A stretch of DNA of 64,000 bases from Mycoplasmatota bacterium (GTDB taxonomy: Bacteria; Bacillota_I; Bacilli_A; Haloplasmatales; Haloplasmataceae), in the NCBI GenBank assembly GCA_018394295.1, contig CP074573.1:868001-932000 (forward strand), given 5' to 3'. Position numbers and translations under genes: made by a program. The notes beneath the pieces were generated by a model. The model made no database searches. It saw only the letters and a list, made by a program, of their open reading frames with translations, and had not been told where the DNA came from. The first letter of the stretch is position 1. Each line of letters starts with the position of its first letter. Below are positions 16,462-40,310 of this stretch, one piece after another.

Positions 16462-16553
16462 ATAAGAACTGTATTTCTTTTTTTCCTTGACCTTTTCTTA
16501 TGGTGTCAAATATTGTATAATTTAATAGTATGAAAATGAAATAGGTGGTAAAT

Positions 16554-19409
16554 ATGTTATTAAAAAGAATTGAGGCAATTGGTTTTAAATCGTTTGCGGA
16601 AAAAACAAAAATTGAATTTGAGGCAGGAATTACAGCGGTTGTTGGTCCGAATGGTTCTGGAAAATCAAATATTTCTGACGCTATTAAGTGGGTACTTGGT
16701 GAACAATCTAGTAAAAGTTTACGTGGAAGTACAATGGCTGATGTAATATTTAATGGAACCACTGAAAGATCCCCTCTTAATATCGCTGAAGTTACCATTG
16801 TATTAGATAATAGTGATAAAGCATTACCAGTTGATTACGAAGAAGTATCGATAACAAGACGCTTGTTTCGTTCTGGGGAAAGTAACTATTATATTAATAA
16901 GCAAAAGGTTCGTTTGAAAGATATTAGAGAAATGATTTTAGACTCTGGAATTGGAGCTGATTCATTATCAATTATTTCTCAGGATAAAGTTCGTGCAGTA
17001 ATTGAAGGAAAAAGTGATGATAGAAGATCAATTATTGAAGAAGCAGCGGGTGTTTTAAAATATAAAAATCGCAAAAAAGAAACTGTTCGTAATTTAGAAC
17101 ATACGGAAAATAATTTACTACGTGCAGCTGATATTTTGAACGAATTAGAATCTCAATATCAACATTTGGAAAAACAAAGCGTTGTTGCTAAGGAATATCT
17201 TCAAATTAAAGGACAGTTAGAGAATATTGAAGTGGCATTATATGTAAGAGACATTGAAATAGCCTTAACAAAAATTAAGGAATTAGAAAAATCAATGAAA
17301 GAACAATCCATTCAAATCTTTAATTATGAACAAATGGAAAAGAAAAATAGTCAAAAAATTGAAGAATTAGAAACTTTGAAAAAAACACTAGATGAAGATA
17401 TAACAAATGAGCAAAATTCATTGATTGAAGTTACTTCAAAGATTAGTTATACAGAGGGACAACGACGTGCACTAGTTGGAGATAATGAAGAATATCTACC
17501 TTTTGAAGAAATATTTAAAGAAAATTTAAATGAACTTAAGCAACTTGAGGGAAAATATCAGAATTTAAAAAATAAGGTTACAGAGAATCAACAAGTTTTG
17601 GCTTCTAATAGAAGTGAATTGACGAGATTACAAAATTTGTATTATAATAAAAATTCACAAAAACATGCGCTAATCTCAAAAATACAAATGTTAAATGACT
17701 TTTCTAATAGTTATTATGGTGGCGTTAAAAATGTATTAAATGAACGTTTATTAAAAGGTATTCAAGGCACCGTTGAATCTTTAATTAATACCGAAGAGAA
17801 GTATGTCAATGCGATTGAAATTGCCTTAGGTGCTGCGATGCAACATATTGTTGTTGATAAGGTAGAACATGCAAAAGCTGCAATTGAATTTTTAAAACGA
17901 GGAAATTTAGGACGAGCTACTTTCCTACCAATTGAAGCAATGAAATCTCGTTTAATTGATCAAAAAATGCTCAGTTTTTTAAACGGACAAACTGGATTTA
18001 TTAACTTAGGAGTTAATTTAATTCAGTTTGATGATAAGTACTCACGAGTAATGAATAATTTATTAGGAAATGTGTTAATTTGTGATAATCTAAATCATGC
18101 TACTGAGATTTCTCGAAAAATTAATAATGCTTATAGGATAATTACTTTAGATGGAGATGTCATTCATGTAGGGGGTAGTATGACCGGGGGACGTCAAAAA
18201 AATAAGGCTCCAAGATTACTACAACAACGTATAGCCCTAGAGGAAGCTAATGATAAACTATCTAAGTTAGAGATTGAAGTTAAAGATTTATCAAAACAAA
18301 TTGATCAAAGAGAAACAGAGGTTAAGGACATAGATCAATTATTTTATAGTCAAAGAATTGAACTCACTCGTTTAGAGGAATATTTGCGTTCAAAACAGCA
18401 AGTAATTAATCAATTAAAACAAAGTTTAGACCAAGAAAATATACAAGAATTATATCATGAACGTGAAAATATAAATGAGGTATTGCGTGAACTTAGATCG
18501 AAAAACCTTGATTATTTAGAACAAATACAACATTTAGAACGTGAAAATAATGAAATCAAGCGTTTCGTTCGTACGACAACTAATAATTTACATGAAGTAG
18601 ATGTTGAAAAGAATCGTATTGATGTTCGCTATAGTAATTTGATGGATTTCTTAATTGATGAATATCATGTAACGTTTGATTATGCAAAAGAAAACTTTTC
18701 ATTAACCATGGATTATGAAGTGGCTAAGATTAGAGTAAGAAACTTGCGACGTCATATGGATAGTTTAGGAAACGTAAATGTGAATGCAATTGAGGAATTT
18801 GAACAAGTAAAAGAACGTTATGAAACGTTAAAATCGAATTATGAAGATTTAATAAAAGCAAAAGAAAACATCCTATCTTCTATTAAAGAATTAGATGAAG
18901 TCATGGTTGAAAGATTTAAAGAGACATTTGAAAAAATAAATATTGAATTTAACCAAGTTTTTCAACAATTATTTAATGGTGGCTGTGCTGAACTAATCTT
19001 AGAAGATGAAACAGATTTATTAAACACTGGAATTGAAATAAATGCTCAACCTCCAGGAACGCGATTATCAAATTCTAATTTATTATCAGGTGGACAAAAA
19101 ACTTTAACATCCATTTCTTTATTATTTGCGATTTTAAGAGTTAGAACAGTTCCATTCTGTGTATTAGATGAGTGTGAGGCAGCACTTGATGAAGCGAATG
19201 TTTTACGTTATGCTGAGTATCTACGTAAATTTAGTCCCCAAACTCAATTTATAGTAATAACCCATCGAAAAGGAACAATGGAACAGGCTGATATTTTATA
19301 TGGTGTTACCATGCAAGAACGTGGGGTAACAACGATTGTTTCAGTTCGTTTAGAAGATACTGATCAGTATATTGAAAATACACCTGATGGATATGAATCT
19401 TTAGATTAA
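16554..19409 (+). CDS. smc: chromosome segregation protein SMC, short-armed
   Basis: ATPase that organises the chromosome with ScpA/ScpB. Head N-part: MLLKRIEAIGFKSFAEK and Walker A GPNGSGKS (about 31-38). Hinge: about 385-550 (GIQGTVESL to GGSMTGG). Head C-part: signature LLSGGQKTLTSI (about 843) and Walker B VLDECEAALDEANV (about 871). The protein has 951 residues against about 1180 in Bacillus; both coiled-coil arms are shorter by roughly 110-140 residues, the heads and hinge being intact, so this is a real short-armed form rather than a fragment. Start ATG 16554 follows AGGTGGT. Own transcription unit between two terminators. Confidence 0.95.
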   Translation: MLLKRIEAIGFKSFAEKTKIEFEAGITAVVGPNGSGKSNISDAIKWVLGEQSSKSLRGSTMADVIFNGTTERSPLNIAEVTIVLDNSDKALPVDYEEVSITRRLFRSGESNYYINKQKVRLKDIREMILDSGIGADSLSIISQDKVRAVIEGKSDDRRSIIEEAAGVLKYKNRKKETVRNLEHTENNLLRAADILNELESQYQHLEKQSVVAKEYLQIKGQLENIEVALYVRDIEIALTKIKELEKSMKEQSIQIFNYEQMEKKNSQKIEELETLKKTLDEDITNEQNSLIEVTSKISYTEGQRRALVGDNEEYLPFEEIFKENLNELKQLEGKYQNLKNKVTENQQVLASNRSELTRLQNLYYNKNSQKHALISKIQMLNDFSNSYYGGVKNVLNERLLKGIQGTVESLINTEEKYVNAIEIALGAAMQHIVVDKVEHAKAAIEFLKRGNLGRATFLPIEAMKSRLIDQKMLSFLNGQTGFINLGVNLIQFDDKYSRVMNNLLGNVLICDNLNHATEISRKINNAYRIITLDGDVIHVGGSMTGGRQKNKAPRLLQQRIALEEANDKLSKLEIEVKDLSKQIDQRETEVKDIDQLFYSQRIELTRLEEYLRSKQQVINQLKQSLDQENIQELYHERENINEVLRELRSKNLDYLEQIQHLERENNEIKRFVRTTTNNLHEVDVEKNRIDVRYSNLMDFLIDEYHVTFDYAKENFSLTMDYEVAKIRVRNLRRHMDSLGNVNVNAIEEFEQVKERYETLKSNYEDLIKAKENILSSIKELDEVMVERFKETFEKINIEFNQVFQQLFNGGCAELILEDETDLLNTGIEINAQPPGTRLSNSNLLSGGQKTLTSISLLFAILRVRTVPFCVLDECEAALDEANVLRYAEYLRKFSPQTQFIVITHRKGTMEQADILYGVTMQERGVTTIVSVRLEDTDQYIENTPDGYESLD

Positions 19410-32233: not shown

Positions 32234-33592
32234 ATGAATACACATCAAATATATGAAATACTTCCCGAACATTTTTTTAGTGTATTGGCTTGTACAAATC
32301 AAGTAGAATATGCTGATTGTTTATTTTTGATGTTTCATTATTTAGGAAAAGGAAATTCATTTGGTGGAAAGAAAGAATCAATCATAGAATTATTATCTAC
32401 TTATTTTAATCAATCGAATAATGATAATAAGCAAATACCACGTGAAAAAGCAATTGGTGTATTGAGGAGACTTAGACAATGTGGATGGATTTTTGAAGAA
32501 GAAGATGCAAACTATGAAGTAATTGTTAATTTCACATCTTATGCAATTCCTTTACTTAAAACATTAAGTGATTTGAAAAAGAGTGAAGCCCTTGAATATT
32601 TAGGATATATTTTTATCATTTATTCAGCCGTCAAAAATATGGAAATAGATTCTTTAAGTGATATATTAGATCAAATTTATTATAATACCACAATTGTGAT
32701 GAACAAACTAAAGTCATTAAATGCAAATATAAAAAAATATATTCAAGATTTATTAAATAAAAAGGATGTTAATGATCTTAAGAGTATCGTAAGTAATCTA
32801 TTTGTTGACTATAAAAAAAATATTATAGACAAGCATTACCAACGATTAAAGACATCTGAAAATATTAGTAAATATCGCCCCTTTATAATTAGTAAATTAA
32901 ATGAAATTAGTATGAATGAGTCGATTATAAAAAAAGTAAGTTATGATTTAGTTAAAAAAGAGAAATATTCTGAATTGTCAAAAGCAAAGTCTCATATTTA
33001 TGATCAGATTGACTATATCATTTCTAGTTTTGAGAATTTTGAACACATTATGTCAGAAATTGATAAAAAAAATTCAAAGTATATTCACACATCAATTTCT
33101 AAAATTTTATTTATCGTTAATAATAGTCAAGATTTACAAGGGAAAATTAATCTAATCTTACGACATTATGTGAAACAGAAAAAAATGAATCAAGGTGTTA
33201 AAGAAGAATGTGTATTTAATTTATTTCCACAGAAATATTTAGCACCAAATTCATTATATACAATGCCGGATAAAACTTATGTGAATTCTGTACAGACAAT
33301 TGAATCTGAAATATCTTTATCATTTGAAGAAAAACAAAAAAAGTTTAAAAACTTTTTTGAAAGTAATGTTTATAACTTAAAACATATTAATTCCTATGTA
33401 AAACAATTATTAAATAAAAAGGAAAGAATATTGGCTTCTTCTTTGCCATTAAATAATTATGTGGATTATACGAAATTGATTTTAATATATATGTATTCAG
33501 GAAGTGATGTAGATTATAGCGTTGATAAACTTAATCAGATATATCAAAATCAAGGGTATCTTTTTTATGACTTTGAAATAAGGAGAAAGTGA
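32234..33592 (+). CDS. jetA: Wadjet/MksF-like kleisin subunit JetA
   Basis: First gene of an SMC operon. The 452-residue protein looks like JetA (DUF5716): an N-terminal winged-helix-like part with VEYADCLFLMFHYLG (about 24-38), the hallmark LRRLRQCGWI (about 78-87), a helical middle, and a kleisin-like C-terminus. In Wadjet it bridges the two SMC heads and holds JetB. Start ATG 32234 behind GCGTGAT. It is followed 1 nt later by jetB. Family call rests on recognised motifs and gene order, not on a search. Confidence 0.85.
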   Translation: MNTHQIYEILPEHFFSVLACTNQVEYADCLFLMFHYLGKGNSFGGKKESIIELLSTYFNQSNNDNKQIPREKAIGVLRRLRQCGWIFEEEDANYEVIVNFTSYAIPLLKTLSDLKKSEALEYLGYIFIIYSAVKNMEIDSLSDILDQIYYNTTIVMNKLKSLNANIKKYIQDLLNKKDVNDLKSIVSNLFVDYKKNIIDKHYQRLKTSENISKYRPFIISKLNEISMNESIIKKVSYDLVKKEKYSELSKAKSHIYDQIDYIISSFENFEHIMSEIDKKNSKYIHTSISKILFIVNNSQDLQGKINLILRHYVKQKKMNQGVKEECVFNLFPQKYLAPNSLYTMPDKTYVNSVQTIESEISLSFEEKQKKFKNFFESNVYNLKHINSYVKQLLNKKERILASSLPLNNYVDYTKLILIYMYSGSDVDYSVDKLNQIYQNQGYLFYDFEIRRK

Positions 33593-33593
33593 T

Positions 33594-34226
33594 ATGGATA
33601 ATGGACAAGTTTTATGCTTTTATAATAACTATATTGGGTTACATGAAAAAGATAAAACAAACTTTTCGCGTATCGTTAATAAATTACTATATGTCAATTA
33701 TTTAACGAATCAAAAAGAAAGTGATATCAACGATTACTATTTTATTACAAGTCATTTTGATTTATTTAAATTATATTTTATGTTGATGGAATGTGAATTA
33801 TTATTTGATACGACAAATCGTCTTATTTCTTTATTTAATAAACAAGGACGTAATCGGCTAAATTTAAAATTAAATGAAAGTATCGTATTATTAATATTAA
33901 GGTTATTATATGATGAAAAAATGCGAGAAGTATCATTAATGAATCAAGTAATTATTCATCTAGAAGAAATACATGATAAATATTTATCAATCGGTTTACA
34001 AGATAGACGGATTAGTAAAACTGAATTAAAACAAATTTTAGGATTATTTAGTCGCTATAACTTACTTAACATTCTTGATCATCAAATCAAGGATGATAGT
34101 AGTCGGATAATGTTATATCCATCACTTCTATATGCAGTGCATATTAAAGATATCAATGAAATATTTGATAAATTAACATCTTATCAAAAAGTAGGTGCAA
34201 TTTGTGAAGAAATTAGTTCGAATTAA
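33594..34226 (+). CDS. jetB: Wadjet/MksE-like KITE subunit JetB
   Basis: A 210-residue DUF4194-type protein. The block LNLKLNESIVLLILRLLYDEK (about 82-102, given here only as key words: NESIVLLILRLLYDEK) is the family hallmark; winged-helix segments follow (ISKTELKQILGLFSRYNLL, about 142-160). In Wadjet and MukE-like complexes two copies bind the kleisin. Site AAGGAGAAAGTGAT overlaps the jetA stop. Its end overlaps jetC by 23 nt. Confidence 0.86.
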   Translation: MDNGQVLCFYNNYIGLHEKDKTNFSRIVNKLLYVNYLTNQKESDINDYYFITSHFDLFKLYFMLMECELLFDTTNRLISLFNKQGRNRLNLKLNESIVLLILRLLYDEKMREVSLMNQVIIHLEEIHDKYLSIGLQDRRISKTELKQILGLFSRYNLLNILDHQIKDDSSRIMLYPSLLYAVHIKDINEIFDKLTSYQKVGAICEEISSN

Positions 34227-37200
34227 ACTAATTAATTGGCATCTTTTTACTAATCAAACCGTTAATATTCATGATAATTGTTTGCTTTCAGGAGAGAACG
34301 GAGCTGGTAAATCAACATTTTTAGATGCAATACAATATGTGTTAACTGGAGGAAAGGCAAAATTTAACTCTGCCGCAAATTTACAAGCTAAACGAAACTT
34401 AGAAGGTTATTTAAGATGTAAATTAGGAATAGAAAATAAAACATATTTACGTAATAAAGATGTGATAAGTCATATTGCTTTAGAATTTTTTGATGATAAT
34501 TCTTCTAAAGTTTTTATTATTGGGGCTATTTTAGAAATCAATAAATCGGGGAGAATTTATGAGCGGTTTTATGTATTAAAAAATAATGAAATTCAAGATA
34601 CATTATTTGTTGAAGATAATATGATTAGAGGGTATGCTTTATTCAAAAAGAATTTATTAAAAGAAAATGAAGAGGTTGTTTTCTGTGATACGAAGGAGCA
34701 AACCAGAAAACTATTCTTAGATACATTAGGCATTAAAAATGACAAATATATTGAATTAATTCCAAAAGCACTTGCCTTTAGACCAATTGATGAATTAAAT
34801 AAATTTGTATTTGATTTTTTATTGAATGAAAAAAACGTTTCTATTGATGAATTAAGACAAAATGTAAGAAGTTATCGTGAGTTTGAAAACTTAATAGAAT
34901 CTTTAAGTCAAAAAGAAGCGATATTAACTGATATTGCCAGTATATACAAAAATTATAGAAATTACGAGGATAAGGAAGGGTTACTAAATCAATTAATGGA
35001 ATATAGTGGCTATAAACAGCTAGTCGATAAAGAAAATAGAATTGAAAATGAATTAGAAAGGATTAAAAAAAATATTAATAAGACACAACAAGAAGAATTA
35101 TTATTAGAAAAACAGCTACTAGTCATTCAGGAAGAGATTGAAAAAATAAATCACGGATTAAATAAAAATACTTCCTATCAGTATTATCAAGAATTAGAAC
35201 GTTTGATAAAAGCTAAGGAGAATGAGAAAAAACAATTTTTAAGTGTTGTGAATGATTTAAATATTATAGTGAATCATGAAAAGAAATTGGCAATGTATGT
35301 TTTTCAGCATATTAAAAAAGAGGACTGTTTTTTACATCATTTCAATATTAATCAAGCATTTGAAGAAGAAAATATGAAAAATCAAATGAAAGAGATAAAG
35401 AAAAGTTATGAAAAGATAAAAGAAAAGTTATTGATAGAAATCAATGATTTAAAAAAAGAAAAATCCGATTATGATAGCGAATTAGATAAAGTAAACGATA
35501 CAATTTATCATTTAGAAAAAAATCAAATGAAGTTTGATCATCGTGTGACACGGTTGAAAACATTGATTGAAGCTGAAACAAGAAAAATCGGAGATAAGAA
35601 TTGCCGTGTATATGCCTTATGTGAATTAATTGAAGTTAAAGATGAAGCATGGCGTTATGCTTTAGAAGGATATTTAAATACGCAACGTTTTGATTTAATC
35701 GTAGACCCAATTTATTTTGATCAAGCACTATATATTTATGAAAAATATAAAAATAAAGAACATTTATATGGGGTAGGATTGGTGAATACAAAGGAGTTAG
35801 AGCGTTATAAAGAAACAAAAGAAAAATCTTTAGCTTCAAAAGTTATCTCGAAGCACAGTGATGCAAGATGCTATGTCAATATGTTACTTAATCGTATGAT
35901 ATGTTGTGAGCATGTAAGTGAATTAAAACAATATAAATCAGCAATTACAAAAACATGTATGGTATATAAAAATTATACAGCAAGACAAATTAATCAAGAG
36001 ATATATAGTAAACCATATATAGGAATGGAAGCAGTAAAGTTACAGTTAATTAATCAAAAAAAGTTAAACAAAGAATTAGTAAATAAGCGTAATTTTTGTG
36101 TAAAAACAATCTCTTTAAAAGAATTTTATTTAGAACGTCTTAAAGCAAGTCAATTAGATTATGTGATTCAAAATTTGAAATCAGTTACGATATTACATCG
36201 AATAAATAATGAATTAAAAGTTATGAGAGATAAATGTCAACATTTTAAAATTAATCCAGAGGTACATAATTTATATAATGAATTAAAACAGAAAAAAGAA
36301 GCATATATTAAAATTGAAGAAAAGAAGAAAAATTGTTTTTTAAATGAAGGGAAATTGTCTAGTGATTTAGAAAATAAAAAGAATGAGTTAACAATAATTC
36401 ATGAAGAAAAATTAAAACATCATAAGGAAGTTGATTCATTGATTAAAGATTATTTTGATGATTTAATGAAACAATTACACAATAGTATTACTAAAGTAGT
36501 TACTTATTGTCAAAGTGAGATAAAAAGTAACGAAGAAAAAATGAAAGAGTCACGAGTAAATCTCATGTCAAAAATGAATCAGTTTAATATCAAATATCAT
36601 GTTGGTTTTAGTCCTACGATAGATGGAATTAATAATTATTTAGATGAATTAAACAAAATTAGAAACTACGAATTAATAAAATATCAAGAGCAAGCTAAGG
36701 AAGCACGATTAAATTGTGAAATTGCCTTTAAAGAACAATTTATTTACAAACTAAGGGAGAATATTATAATAGCACATGAAGAATTAAATTATCTTAATCT
36801 TGCATTAAAAAATAAAAGGTTTGGTGGAGATGAATATGAATTTATTTATAAAGCAAGTCCTCATCATGAATATGGTCGATATTATCAGTTAATTATGAAA
36901 GAGGGAGAATGTTATGAGGATACATTATTTACAGAGTCAATAAGCGATCAAAACAAATTAATTCTTAAAGAGTTATTTGATAAACTAGTCATTGATCGTA
37001 ATGACCAAGAGGCGTATACAACACTTGCCAAATTCTGTGACTATCGTAATTATATGAGTTATGATATTAAAATTAATCATCAAAATGGAGAATCTACTTA
37101 TTTTTCAAAAGTAAGTAGAGAAAAGAGTGGTGGAGAAACCCAAACACCTTTTTATGTGGTTATCGCAGCTAGTTTTGAACAACTTATGAATGATAAAAAA

Positions 37201-37437
37201 CGGGATTCACCTGCTTGTTTTGTGTTGTTTGATGAAGCATTTAACAATATGGATGATTCTAGAATAAACGCAATGATGGAATTCTATCATCAATTAAATA
37301 TACAATTGATGATTTCTGTACCACCTCAGCGTGTTGAAACCATTATTGAACATGTAAACACAACATTAGTGGTTATGAAAGATGAAGATAAGTCCTTTAT
37401 TGAATCATTTTCATATTATGAGTTAGGAAATGATTAG
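34204..37437 (+). CDS. jetC: Wadjet SMC-like ATPase JetC
   Basis: A 1077-residue MukB/JetC-type SMC protein. Head: RIKLINWHLFTNQTVNI and Walker A SGENGAGKSTFLDA (about 27-40). Two coiled-coil arms (about 230-465 and 620-880) surround a hinge with VYALCELIEVKDEAWRYAL (about 468). Head end: signature REKSGGETQTPFYVV (about 973), Walker B CFVLFDEAFNNMD (about 1003) and SVPPQRVETI. In Wadjet it extrudes plasmid DNA and delivers it to JetD. The start is GTG 34204, six nt after AGGTG. The operon ends here: a terminator follows and no jetD is present. Confidence 0.92.
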   Translation: MKKLVRIKLINWHLFTNQTVNIHDNCLLSGENGAGKSTFLDAIQYVLTGGKAKFNSAANLQAKRNLEGYLRCKLGIENKTYLRNKDVISHIALEFFDDNSSKVFIIGAILEINKSGRIYERFYVLKNNEIQDTLFVEDNMIRGYALFKKNLLKENEEVVFCDTKEQTRKLFLDTLGIKNDKYIELIPKALAFRPIDELNKFVFDFLLNEKNVSIDELRQNVRSYREFENLIESLSQKEAILTDIASIYKNYRNYEDKEGLLNQLMEYSGYKQLVDKENRIENELERIKKNINKTQQEELLLEKQLLVIQEEIEKINHGLNKNTSYQYYQELERLIKAKENEKKQFLSVVNDLNIIVNHEKKLAMYVFQHIKKEDCFLHHFNINQAFEEENMKNQMKEIKKSYEKIKEKLLIEINDLKKEKSDYDSELDKVNDTIYHLEKNQMKFDHRVTRLKTLIEAETRKIGDKNCRVYALCELIEVKDEAWRYALEGYLNTQRFDLIVDPIYFDQALYIYEKYKNKEHLYGVGLVNTKELERYKETKEKSLASKVISKHSDARCYVNMLLNRMICCEHVSELKQYKSAITKTCMVYKNYTARQINQEIYSKPYIGMEAVKLQLINQKKLNKELVNKRNFCVKTISLKEFYLERLKASQLDYVIQNLKSVTILHRINNELKVMRDKCQHFKINPEVHNLYNELKQKKEAYIKIEEKKKNCFLNEGKLSSDLENKKNELTIIHEEKLKHHKEVDSLIKDYFDDLMKQLHNSITKVVTYCQSEIKSNEEKMKESRVNLMSKMNQFNIKYHVGFSPTIDGINNYLDELNKIRNYELIKYQEQAKEARLNCEIAFKEQFIYKLRENIIIAHEELNYLNLALKNKRFGGDEYEFIYKASPHHEYGRYYQLIMKEGECYEDTLFTESISDQNKLILKELFDKLVIDRNDQEAYTTLAKFCDYRNYMSYDIKINHQNGESTYFSKVSREKSGGETQTPFYVVIAASFEQLMNDKKRDSPACFVLFDEAFNNMDDSRINAMMEFYHQLNIQLMISVPPQRVETIIEHVNTTLVVMKDEDKSFIESFSYYELGND

Positions 37438-37459
37438 TATAAATTTATATGTATTATAA

Positions 37460-37488
37460 AACGCTCTCGATGATAGAGAGCGTTTGTT
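37460..37488. terminator. terminator closing the jetABC operon
   Basis: AAACGCTCTC and GAGAGCGTTT form a 10-bp stem around GATGATA (about 37459-37486), T-rich on the right; it lies between jetC and a convergent gene and can serve both. Confidence 0.88.
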
Positions 37489-37521: not shown

Positions 37522-38409
37522 TTACAAATTCACATCGACAATTTCATCTAGATTGATTACTTCAAATTCATCGTGATCATATTCTGGTAATTCATAAAAA
37601 CGTTGATTTGTTTTCTCATCATCTGTTGAATGAAACAAATAACAATCTAATTCATGGTCAATTTTCTCTAACATGTCTGAAAATATATCTATCACTTCAT
37701 CAAATGGTATCAAACTTGTTTTATGTTTTTTAAGACCTAAAAATCCTTTGTAGGTTCTTGTAATGAATACATAGTCACATTTAGGAATGAGGCTTCCTTT
37801 TAGATTATCCCATGAAAATACAGTATAAATTGATTGATTATTTATATTTTTGATAAAAGAAATATCAGGGACATCTATATTAAAGATTTGGTTTAGTTTT
37901 TTCTTTTCAAGTGAATAAAAATAATAATAATTCGATTTTTCTTTAGTAGTTGACAGTAATGGATATTGTTTATTAAATTCAATACATGTTAATTCATTAT
38001 TTTTAATATACGAGTCGATTAATTCTTCTGTAGTATATAATTTTATGGTATTCTTTTCTTCTGTTAAACTTTGAATATCGTTTATGTACAAATCAAAAGT
38101 TTTTGATAAGTTTTCAATAATTGGCATAGCTTCTAGGGCATAAAAAGAAGGACGTAAATAATTAATGGAGAAATAAGTGTAACAAAATTCATAAGCATCA
38201 TCAAAAGAAATATCCGTAAACAATTCATTTTTTTCATTATAAATGATAGAAAAAGAAACACTTGTTTCATTATTTTTGTACACAAATTGATATAAATCAA
38301 CATCTAGGGGTTTAATTGTAAAGTTTTTTTGCTTGGTAAAAAATGAAACAACATTGTCTAAAGTAATTTTTGAATTTTTATTTTTAAAAAATATTAAATC
38401 AAATGACAT
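37522..38409 (-). CDS. hypothetical protein, possible cytoplasmic effector or stress protein
   Basis: A 295-residue acidic protein that I do not recognise. It starts MSFDLIFFKNKNSKIT, has no signal peptide or membrane segment, is rich in Asp, Glu, Phe and Tyr, and ends in an acidic tail (HDEFEVINLDEIVDVNL). It is not JetD: no TOPRIM acidic pattern or DUF3322/DUF2220 blocks are visible. Good site AAGGAG. Convergent with jetC and followed on the other side by divergent thioredoxin-like genes; any link with either is untested. Confidence 0.7.
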   Translation of the reverse strand: MSFDLIFFKNKNSKITLDNVVSFFTKQKNFTIKPLDVDLYQFVYKNNETSVSFSIIYNEKNELFTDISFDDAYEFCYTYFSINYLRPSFYALEAMPIIENLSKTFDLYINDIQSLTEEKNTIKLYTTEELIDSYIKNNELTCIEFNKQYPLLSTTKEKSNYYYFYSLEKKKLNQIFNIDVPDISFIKNINNQSIYTVFSWDNLKGSLIPKCDYVFITRTYKGFLGLKKHKTSLIPFDEVIDIFSDMLEKIDHELDCYLFHSTDDEKTNQRFYELPEYDHDEFEVINLDEIVDVNL

Positions 38410-39219: not shown

Positions 39220-39696
39220 TTAATTTGTAAAATTTATAAGTGTTTTTTGAGGTTTTTCTGAACCTGGCATTTTATCTATAATGTATTTTCCTTCTGATAC
39301 TTTTTTAATGTAAATAACTGTAGGGGTAGCTTTAAGTCCAATATCGCTAGCTAATTGACCACCTTCTGTTTCGTTAACGTTAATTTTATACATTCTAATT
39401 TTAGGATTTTTAATGAAGTTTTGATAAGCAGCACTTTGCATTAACACTTGACAATGTCCGCAATTAGGGGAATAGAAGTAAACAAAATATTCTTCTTCAT
39501 TTTCACTATTACCATATCTCATTGATGCGGCATGATTTACATTCGTTTCTTCTAGTGCTGTAGGAAGACTTCGAGGTTTAATTTTAGAGTCTTTAACTGT
39601 TAAAGAAATTATTCCGACAATTAGTAAGGTAGCAACTATTAATATACCTATAATAAAATATTTAAACGTGTTATCTCCACTTGTATATTTAATCAT
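39220..39696 (-). CDS. membrane-anchored thioredoxin with CGHC site
   Basis: A 158-residue protein with one N-terminal membrane helix (about 11-33) and an external thioredoxin domain: FYSPNCGHCQVLM (about 80-92) holds the CxxC pair and GLKATPTVIYI (about 124) the cis-Pro. The dithiol site suggests a true oxidoreductase at the cell surface. Good site AAAGGAG. Convergent with the CxxS-type protein and divergent from the lipoprotein version. Confidence 0.88.
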   Translation of the reverse strand: MIKYTSGDNTFKYFIIGILIVATLLIVGIISLTVKDSKIKPRSLPTALEETNVNHAASMRYGNSENEEEYFVYFYSPNCGHCQVLMQSAAYQNFIKNPKIRMYKINVNETEGGQLASDIGLKATPTVIYIKKVSEGKYIIDKMPGSEKPQKTLINFTN

Positions 39697-39851
39697 TGTT
39701 TTACTCCTTTGTTATTAAGTCTATTATGTATTATAACCCAATATTTATAGAAAGTAAATAATTTATATTTACCAGGTATTTTATTTAAAAACTTGTTAAT
39801 ATATAGAATATACAATATAATAATAAATAGAAAAAACATAAGGAGTCAATT

Positions 39852-40310
39852 ATGCAAATTAGATTAAATCGTATTATTATTTTAGTTATAGTTCTTGTAG
39901 GGTTATTAGGATGTACAAAGGATGAAAAAATAGAAGTTAAACTGAATTCTTCTGAGGAAGCAATACAGAAATTTGAAAATAAAGATTCTTTTATTATCGT
40001 GATTGGTGAAAGTTTATGTGGAGGATGTCAAGAATATAAAGAGGGTACCATCACAAAATATGTTAATAAACATACACAAGATGATTTAATCTACATATAT
40101 TCTGATAAAAGTTTTGCTAATACAACAGAATTTTATAATTTTTTAACAACATATGAAATAGATTATAATTCTTCTCCTACAACTTATTTTATCAAAAATG
40201 GTGAATATATTAAGACTAATGAAAATTCAGATGTTCAAACAAAATCTGAAGATATTATGACATTAAAACAATTAGAAGAATTTATTTCAAAAAATGAAGC
40301 ATCAGAGTGA
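39852..40310 (+). CDS. thioredoxin-like lipoprotein with CGGC site
   Basis: A 152-residue lipoprotein. Signal IIILVIVLVGLLGC ends in a lipobox (Cys about 21). The thioredoxin-like domain has VIGESLCGGCQEY (about 50-62) with a Cys-Gly-Gly-Cys pair and SSPTTYFI (about 112) as cis-Pro loop, the arrangement of PedC/BrcD-like bacterial thioredoxins. Strong site AAGGAG. Third of a compact group of envelope redox proteins. Confidence 0.86.
   Translation: MQIRLNRIIILVIVLVGLLGCTKDEKIEVKLNSSEEAIQKFENKDSFIIVIGESLCGGCQEYKEGTITKYVNKHTQDDLIYIYSDKSFANTTEFYNFLTTYEIDYNSSPTTYFIKNGEYIKTNENSDVQTKSEDIMTLKQLEEFISKNEASE

Follow-up and report, generated by a model that had tools for sequence, protein, structure and literature searches.

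The stretch of DNA analysed here, hereafter the window, spans 64,000 nucleotides of a Haloplasmataceae genome (G000:C1:868001-932000; genome of 3.29 Mb in 2 contigs, 98.75% complete) and encodes a jetA-jetB-jetC operon that lacks jetD, the nuclease gene of type I Wadjet systems. The JetABC core without JetD probably acts as a chromosomal condensin, auxiliary to SMC in the window's organism and probably the main SMC complex in relatives. This motor of kleisin, KITE and SMC ATPase subunits would have descended from a type I Wadjet, losing JetD, and would load on DNA and extrude loops by ATP hydrolysis without cutting. It would work alongside SMC-ScpAB in the window's organism, as MksBEF does in Pseudomonas aeruginosa, and in Acholeplasmataceae and six or more further lineages of family rank in the same class, where it is the only recognisable SMC complex, it would probably be the main chromosome folder. 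Both the extrusion without cleavage and the chromosomal role would follow by analogy from the literature on Wadjet, MukBEF and MksBEF.

A type I Jet operon without jetD

The operon consists of three intact, tightly packed frames on the + strand (window positions 32234-37437). The gene jetA (32234..33592, +) encodes a kleisin subunit of 452 aa matching Pfam JetA PF18982 (DUF5716; 300 bits, E 2.5e-89) and PADLOC JetA1 (393 bits); jetB (33594..34226, +) encodes a KITE subunit of 210 aa matching DUF4194 PF13835 (87 bits against a cut-off of 32.7, E 1.1e-24) and PADLOC JetB1 (206 bits); and jetC (34195..37437, +), the start of which overlaps the end of jetB, encodes an SMC/MukB-like ATPase subunit of 1080 aa matching PADLOC JetC1 (PDLC00519, 1007 bits over 5-1076). 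Pfam and PADLOC thus place all three products in type I Wadjet families, confirming the identities proposed in an earlier note made from the letters of this DNA, and the two strings quoted there, LRRLRQCGWI and REKSGGE, are both present in the sequence. The JetC residues of Walker A (G33/N35/G38-K39-S40), the signature (S978-GG-E981) and Walker B (D1013/E1014) are conserved throughout an alignment of 25 JetCs, jetD-less ones included. A profile search found a single JetC copy in the genome, that of the window. When compared by sequence with solved structures, JetC matched MukB only (E 2e-5) and JetB matched none.

An intrinsic terminator (37459..37485, +; 10-bp stem with 5 GC pairs, tail GTTTATATAA) lies 22 bp past the jetC stop and is followed by a convergent gene (37522..38409, -; 295 aa), leaving no room for jetD at the locus; terminator-like sites numbered 2 in the 6.8 kb scanned, against 0.7 expected. 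The earlier note had described a terminator 20-50 bp after jetC, a convergent next gene unlike JetD and hence the absence of jetD from the locus, and these points hold. The product of the convergent gene matched nothing in Pfam and PADLOC searches and did not match the JetD profile, and its candidacy as a nuclease was rejected on the lack of a family match and on an AlphaFold2 model (predicted local distance difference test score of 73.5) without a PDB match at E<=0.001. Relatives of it lie next to jetC in three further family members, G001 (54%), G005 (36%) and G003 (partial). Small thioredoxin-like proteins with CGHC and CGGC motifs are encoded past the operon region, at window positions 39220-40310, and recur near the operon in relatives.

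The absence of JetD extends to the whole genome, in which a search with JetD_C PF09983 found nothing over the cut-off of 22 and a search with DUF3322 gave no hit at all. A 12-bit sub-threshold PF09983 match at C1:368401 was rejected as JetD, being a 61-aa frame with a stop. As a positive control, the JetD_C search detected JetD in 7/7 other genomes of the family, five of them at 104-120 bits; the weaker hits, in G003 and G005, are type III and type II JetDs of separate systems, and JetDs of these two types score close to the PF09983 cut-off. These whole-genome searches, which the earlier note had proposed, speak against its suggestion that jetD might be encoded elsewhere. Since JetD was looked for in the operon and the genome and found in neither, the operon is not filed as a Wadjet system and, by sequence, is a type I Jet core.

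Conservation in the window's family

JetC is present in 8/8 genomes of the window's family (f1) that were checked, and five genera (represented by G000, G001, G003, G004 and G005) carry the jetD-less operon, with all three frames intact and JetC identities of 50-65%, including 65% between G001 and the window; G006 carries a further, more distant jetD-less copy. The same genes flank the operon in G000, G001 and G004, and G005 shares the downstream block only. Complete jetABCD operons are found at other sites in G001, G002, G004, G006 and G007. Two genomes encode separate systems beside the jetD-less type I operon, namely a type III Wadjet in G003 (JetD3, JetC3; L058:3042-10804) and a type II Wadjet in G005 (JetC2, JetD2; L059:1864-9769). 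Given its occurrence in five genera, the shared neighbours and the complete jetABCD at other sites, the operon of this family is a chromosomal locus of long standing that has been kept vertically, and not a recent deletion. The survey of relatives suggested in the earlier note therefore found jetABC without jetD across the family, and the recent loss of jetD in one strain that the note had allowed for is excluded by the five genera.

No replacement nuclease was found as a conserved fourth gene in the loci of the window's clade. An open reading frame of 184 aa overlapping jetC in G005 (L040:9518-10072) was considered as such a gene and rejected, because the other loci contain nothing related to it and no Pfam model matched it above the cut-off.

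JetABC and SMC-ScpAB across the class

The window also encodes a canonical smc (16545..19409, +; 954 aa), 13 kb upstream of jetA, with an SMC hinge (PF06470, E 2e-32) at G000:C1:885754-886113, corresponding to window positions 17754-18113, and ScpA is encoded at G000:C1:1921764-1922426 (PF02616, E 8.7e-37). JetABC is an extra SMC complex in this organism because canonical SMC and ScpA are also encoded there. The hinge match belongs to this separate smc and not to jetC, which falls outside SMC-ScpAB. The window's SMC is short, as in most families of the class, whose SMC frames usually measure ~930-1000 aa, against ~1195 aa in f11; this suggests shortened coiled-coil arms.

A wider survey covered 120 relatives of the class with profile searches for JetA, ScpA, the SMC hinge, JetD_C and JetC, yielding 34 genomes positive for JetA, 65 for the SMC hinge, 13 for JetD_C and 35 for the JetC profile; ScpA was found in 65 at E <= 0.01, 64 of these over the cut-off. 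Outside f1 and f13, ScpA and a true SMC hinge were missing in 25/25 JetA-positive genomes, which belong to f3, f7, f9, f18, f20, f21 and f22; in G056 and G067 the hinge model hit a region within JetC. JetD_C was missing in 24/25 of these genomes, the exception being G071, which has a separate, broken JetA and a JetD on another contig. Among JetABC-positive genomes, JetD was thus found in 8/10 with SMC and 1/25 without it (Fisher p 1.6e-5, uncorrected for relatedness). Among the options raised in the earlier note, the one with most support is a condensin-like complex resembling MksBEF without MksG, jetABC being the sole SMC-type complex found in 25 related genomes.

Acholeplasmataceae (f9) include Acholeplasma laidlawii PG-8A (G095). 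Members of f9 in the 120-genome set, including A. laidlawii, were searched for SMC, ScpA and JetD as well as JetA, and a further 77 genomes of the family for JetA alone. JetA is present in 68/88 Acholeplasmataceae genomes, or 50/54 when the two genera with the smallest genomes, g97 and g99, are left out. In g97, with genomes of 0.3-0.9 Mb and evidently phytoplasmas, it is kept in 18/29 and absent from 11, a patchy loss in a genus of obligate parasites, and in g99, with low completeness, it was found in 0/5. In the SMC-less genomes the neighbours of jetABC are housekeeping genes, including ptsI (enzyme I of the phosphotransferase system) and genes for a C1-family peptidase and RsmE-like and MiaB-like proteins; sepF directly follows jetC in G080, and leuS lies near jetABC in G035 and G046.

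Two further jetD-less loci were observed. The SMC-positive genome G112 (f13) carries at L116 a jetABC whose JetC belongs to a different subfamily (PDLC00516 scores best among the PADLOC models, at 1446 bits); it has no JetD and is followed by a gene of the iron-type alcohol dehydrogenase family. A divergent jetD-less jetABC occurs in Clostridia, on a 252-kb replicon of Agathobacter rectalis (L123; NZ_CP143948.1), beside genes for a gamma carbonic anhydrase, a major facilitator superfamily transporter and ppk1.

Selection and the history of JetD

The ratio of nonsynonymous to synonymous substitution rates (dN/dS) is 0.012-0.064 when JetA, JetB and JetC are compared between SMC-less genomes and 0.16-0.19 between G000 and G001; jetABC is under strong purifying selection in the SMC-less lineages. 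In trees of concatenated JetABC the jetD-less lineages fall in several places: that of f3 stands beside the family's own jetABCD (support of 96 in the Shimodaira-Hasegawa-like approximate likelihood ratio test), f1a and f9 share a clade with the jetD-positive G105, and f20-22 and f7+f18 lie apart. A single clade of all jetD-less JetABC was rejected (approximately unbiased test, p 9.4e-5). The JetD state changed at least 3 times on well-supported branches, counts that do not separate loss from gain; loss is the simpler reading, since the type I Wadjet of distant outgroups has jetD.

The chances are about even that a defence-SMC motor was converted to a housekeeping condensin several times in one class by loss of JetD, with SMC-ScpAB fully replaced in Acholeplasmataceae (A. 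laidlawii and some of the phytoplasmas) as well as in six or more other families, and with the window's family as an intermediate state.

Possible sequence correlates of the JetD state were also noted. The JetA residue at position 375 of the window's protein is K/R in 8/8 JetD-positive and 0/21 JetD-negative sequences, a separation equalled by 12/600 random groupings, and Leu in the JetD-positive Erythrobacter breaks the rule. The IFDR motif at the N-terminus of JetB is one JetD contact in P. aeruginosa (PMC10586767); a literal IFDR was seen in neither the JetD-positive nor the JetD-negative set, and is therefore of no use as a discriminator.

Comparison with known complexes

The operon shares with type I Wadjet (JetABCD; MksBEFG/EptABCD) the same kleisin, KITE and SMC ATPase, the same gene order and overlapping genes, and its best PADLOC models are JetA1, JetB1 and JetC1. 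It differs in the lack of jetD at the locus and of any above-threshold JetD in the genome, in being kept at one chromosomal site family-wide, and in having relatives in other families that lack SMC-ScpAB and carry the operon among housekeeping genes. The MksBEF of P. aeruginosa, which a review derives from JetABCD by loss of JetD (PMC10586767), is likewise a kleisin-KITE-SMC motor without MksG/JetD and coexists with SMC-ScpAB, as in the window's genome. MksBEF belongs to another phylum, however, and the window's JetB fits DUF4194 and only weakly MksE (16.2 bits, below the 27-bit cut-off), while in Acholeplasmataceae and others there is no coexisting SMC-ScpAB. The likeness to MksBEF is therefore likely one of function, whereas by sequence the operon belongs to the Jet1 families.

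MukBEF offers a parallel as a MukB-like complex that replaced SMC-ScpAB in one lineage, the enterobacteria and relatives (PMC10586767), but the window's JetC, at ~1080 aa, reaches only 16 bits against a cut-off of 23 with the model of the MukB N-terminus, and the replacement considered here is in Bacilli and mollicute relatives. SMC-ScpAB likely does the same job as JetABC but is non-orthologous to it; it is separate in the window's genome and absent from 25 JetABC-bearing relatives.

Alternative explanations

Several points weigh against a condensin role. SMC-ScpAB is present in the window's organism, so that nothing obliges JetABC to fill such a role there, and dN/dS in the window's family exceeds that in the SMC-less lineages. 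In about 30/120 relatives these searches detected neither SMC-ScpAB nor JetABC, and the correlation between SMC absence and JetABC is therefore not absolute; the genomes with neither complex include G011, G013, G018, G024, G026, G029, G033, G040, G044 and G051, several of them at least 97% complete and some in a single contig. The chromosome is not a target of the nuclease-containing MksBEFG of Corynebacterium glutamicum (PMC7083940), and a non-homologous nuclease acting in trans is possible. It is unlikely that JetABC is still the core of an anti-plasmid defence, recruiting a nuclease other than JetD encoded elsewhere or adjacent. Examples that could fit this account are two loci from metagenome-assembled genomes (L008:587-6556 and L009:1978-7956), in which a ~1990-aa protein with DUF4011, superfamily 1 helicase, MTES_1575 endonuclease and DUF3320 domains (related to the PADLOC defence models PDC-S37, at ~960 bits, and Hhe, at ~450-475 bits) is encoded ~50 bp upstream of a jetD-less jetABC and may possibly be an alternative effector for the Wadjet core, and the jetD-less copy of G006, which is followed by a gene with a Cas3-HD-like HD domain. 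In the window's clade, by contrast, the operon has no adjoining nuclease gene and no conserved extra gene, and one site is kept across genera; the SMC-less lineages, moreover, show housekeeping-like evolution and neighbours. The earlier note's idea of some other nuclease is thus possible in principle but has no conserved candidate beside the operon in this clade.

A defence without cutting, in which loop extrusion by JetABC would cause plasmids to be sequestered, silenced or mis-segregated, is distinctly unlikely. Circle and size sensing in Wadjet is a property of JetABC alone and Smc5/6 needs no nuclease to restrict extrachromosomal DNA (PMC10586767), and the second contig of the window's genome, of 98 kb, may be a plasmid; yet a function for the host is suggested by long retention in reduced genomes, including those of the phytoplasma-sized genus, and by the absence of SMC-ScpAB from 25 carriers. 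That the operon is a decaying Wadjet remnant in the window's family is quite improbable: jetD is gone, jetABC could be dispensable given SMC-ScpAB, and the dN/dS of the G000/G001 pair is the higher one, but that ratio is far below 1, the frames and ATPase motifs are intact across the family at the JetC divergence seen there, and the syntenic site is kept. It is very improbable that a JetD has escaped the searches, either because its sequence has diverged beyond detection or because its gene falls in the 1% of the genome left unsequenced. The completeness figure and the near-cut-off scores of type II and III JetDs leave some room for it, but within this family the JetDs of type I score far higher with the same model, the absence is repeated in G112 and in 24/25 SMC-less JetABC genomes of other families, and a maximum-sensitivity search with a type I JetD profile found nothing credible in the jetD-less loci.

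Significance

The principle of a nuclease-less, Wadjet-derived condensin is already known, from the review account of P. aeruginosa MksBEF (PMC10586767). The openly licensed literature searched contained no account of its occurrence in Bacilli and Acholeplasma, of its repetition or of the absence of SMC-ScpAB from carriers beyond the window's family and f13; in that literature Wadjet was nowhere joined with phytoplasma and, with Haloplasma, only through an ordinary jetABCD in Bulleidia.

If JetABC does act as a condensin in these lineages, the route from defence SMC to condensin speculated for MukBEF and MksBEF would become directly testable in several independent cases, with paired jetABCD and jetABC paralogues in one genome (G001, G004, G006) as material. 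Defence-finding software that scores jetA, jetB and jetC may, as a caution, label housekeeping condensins 'Wadjet'. The culturable A. laidlawii would have a Wadjet-derived complex as its only recognisable condensin, and for phytoplasmas carrying jetABC, whose partitioning gene set was called 'sparse' in a 2011 review (PMC3322544), JetABC would be a candidate addition to that set.
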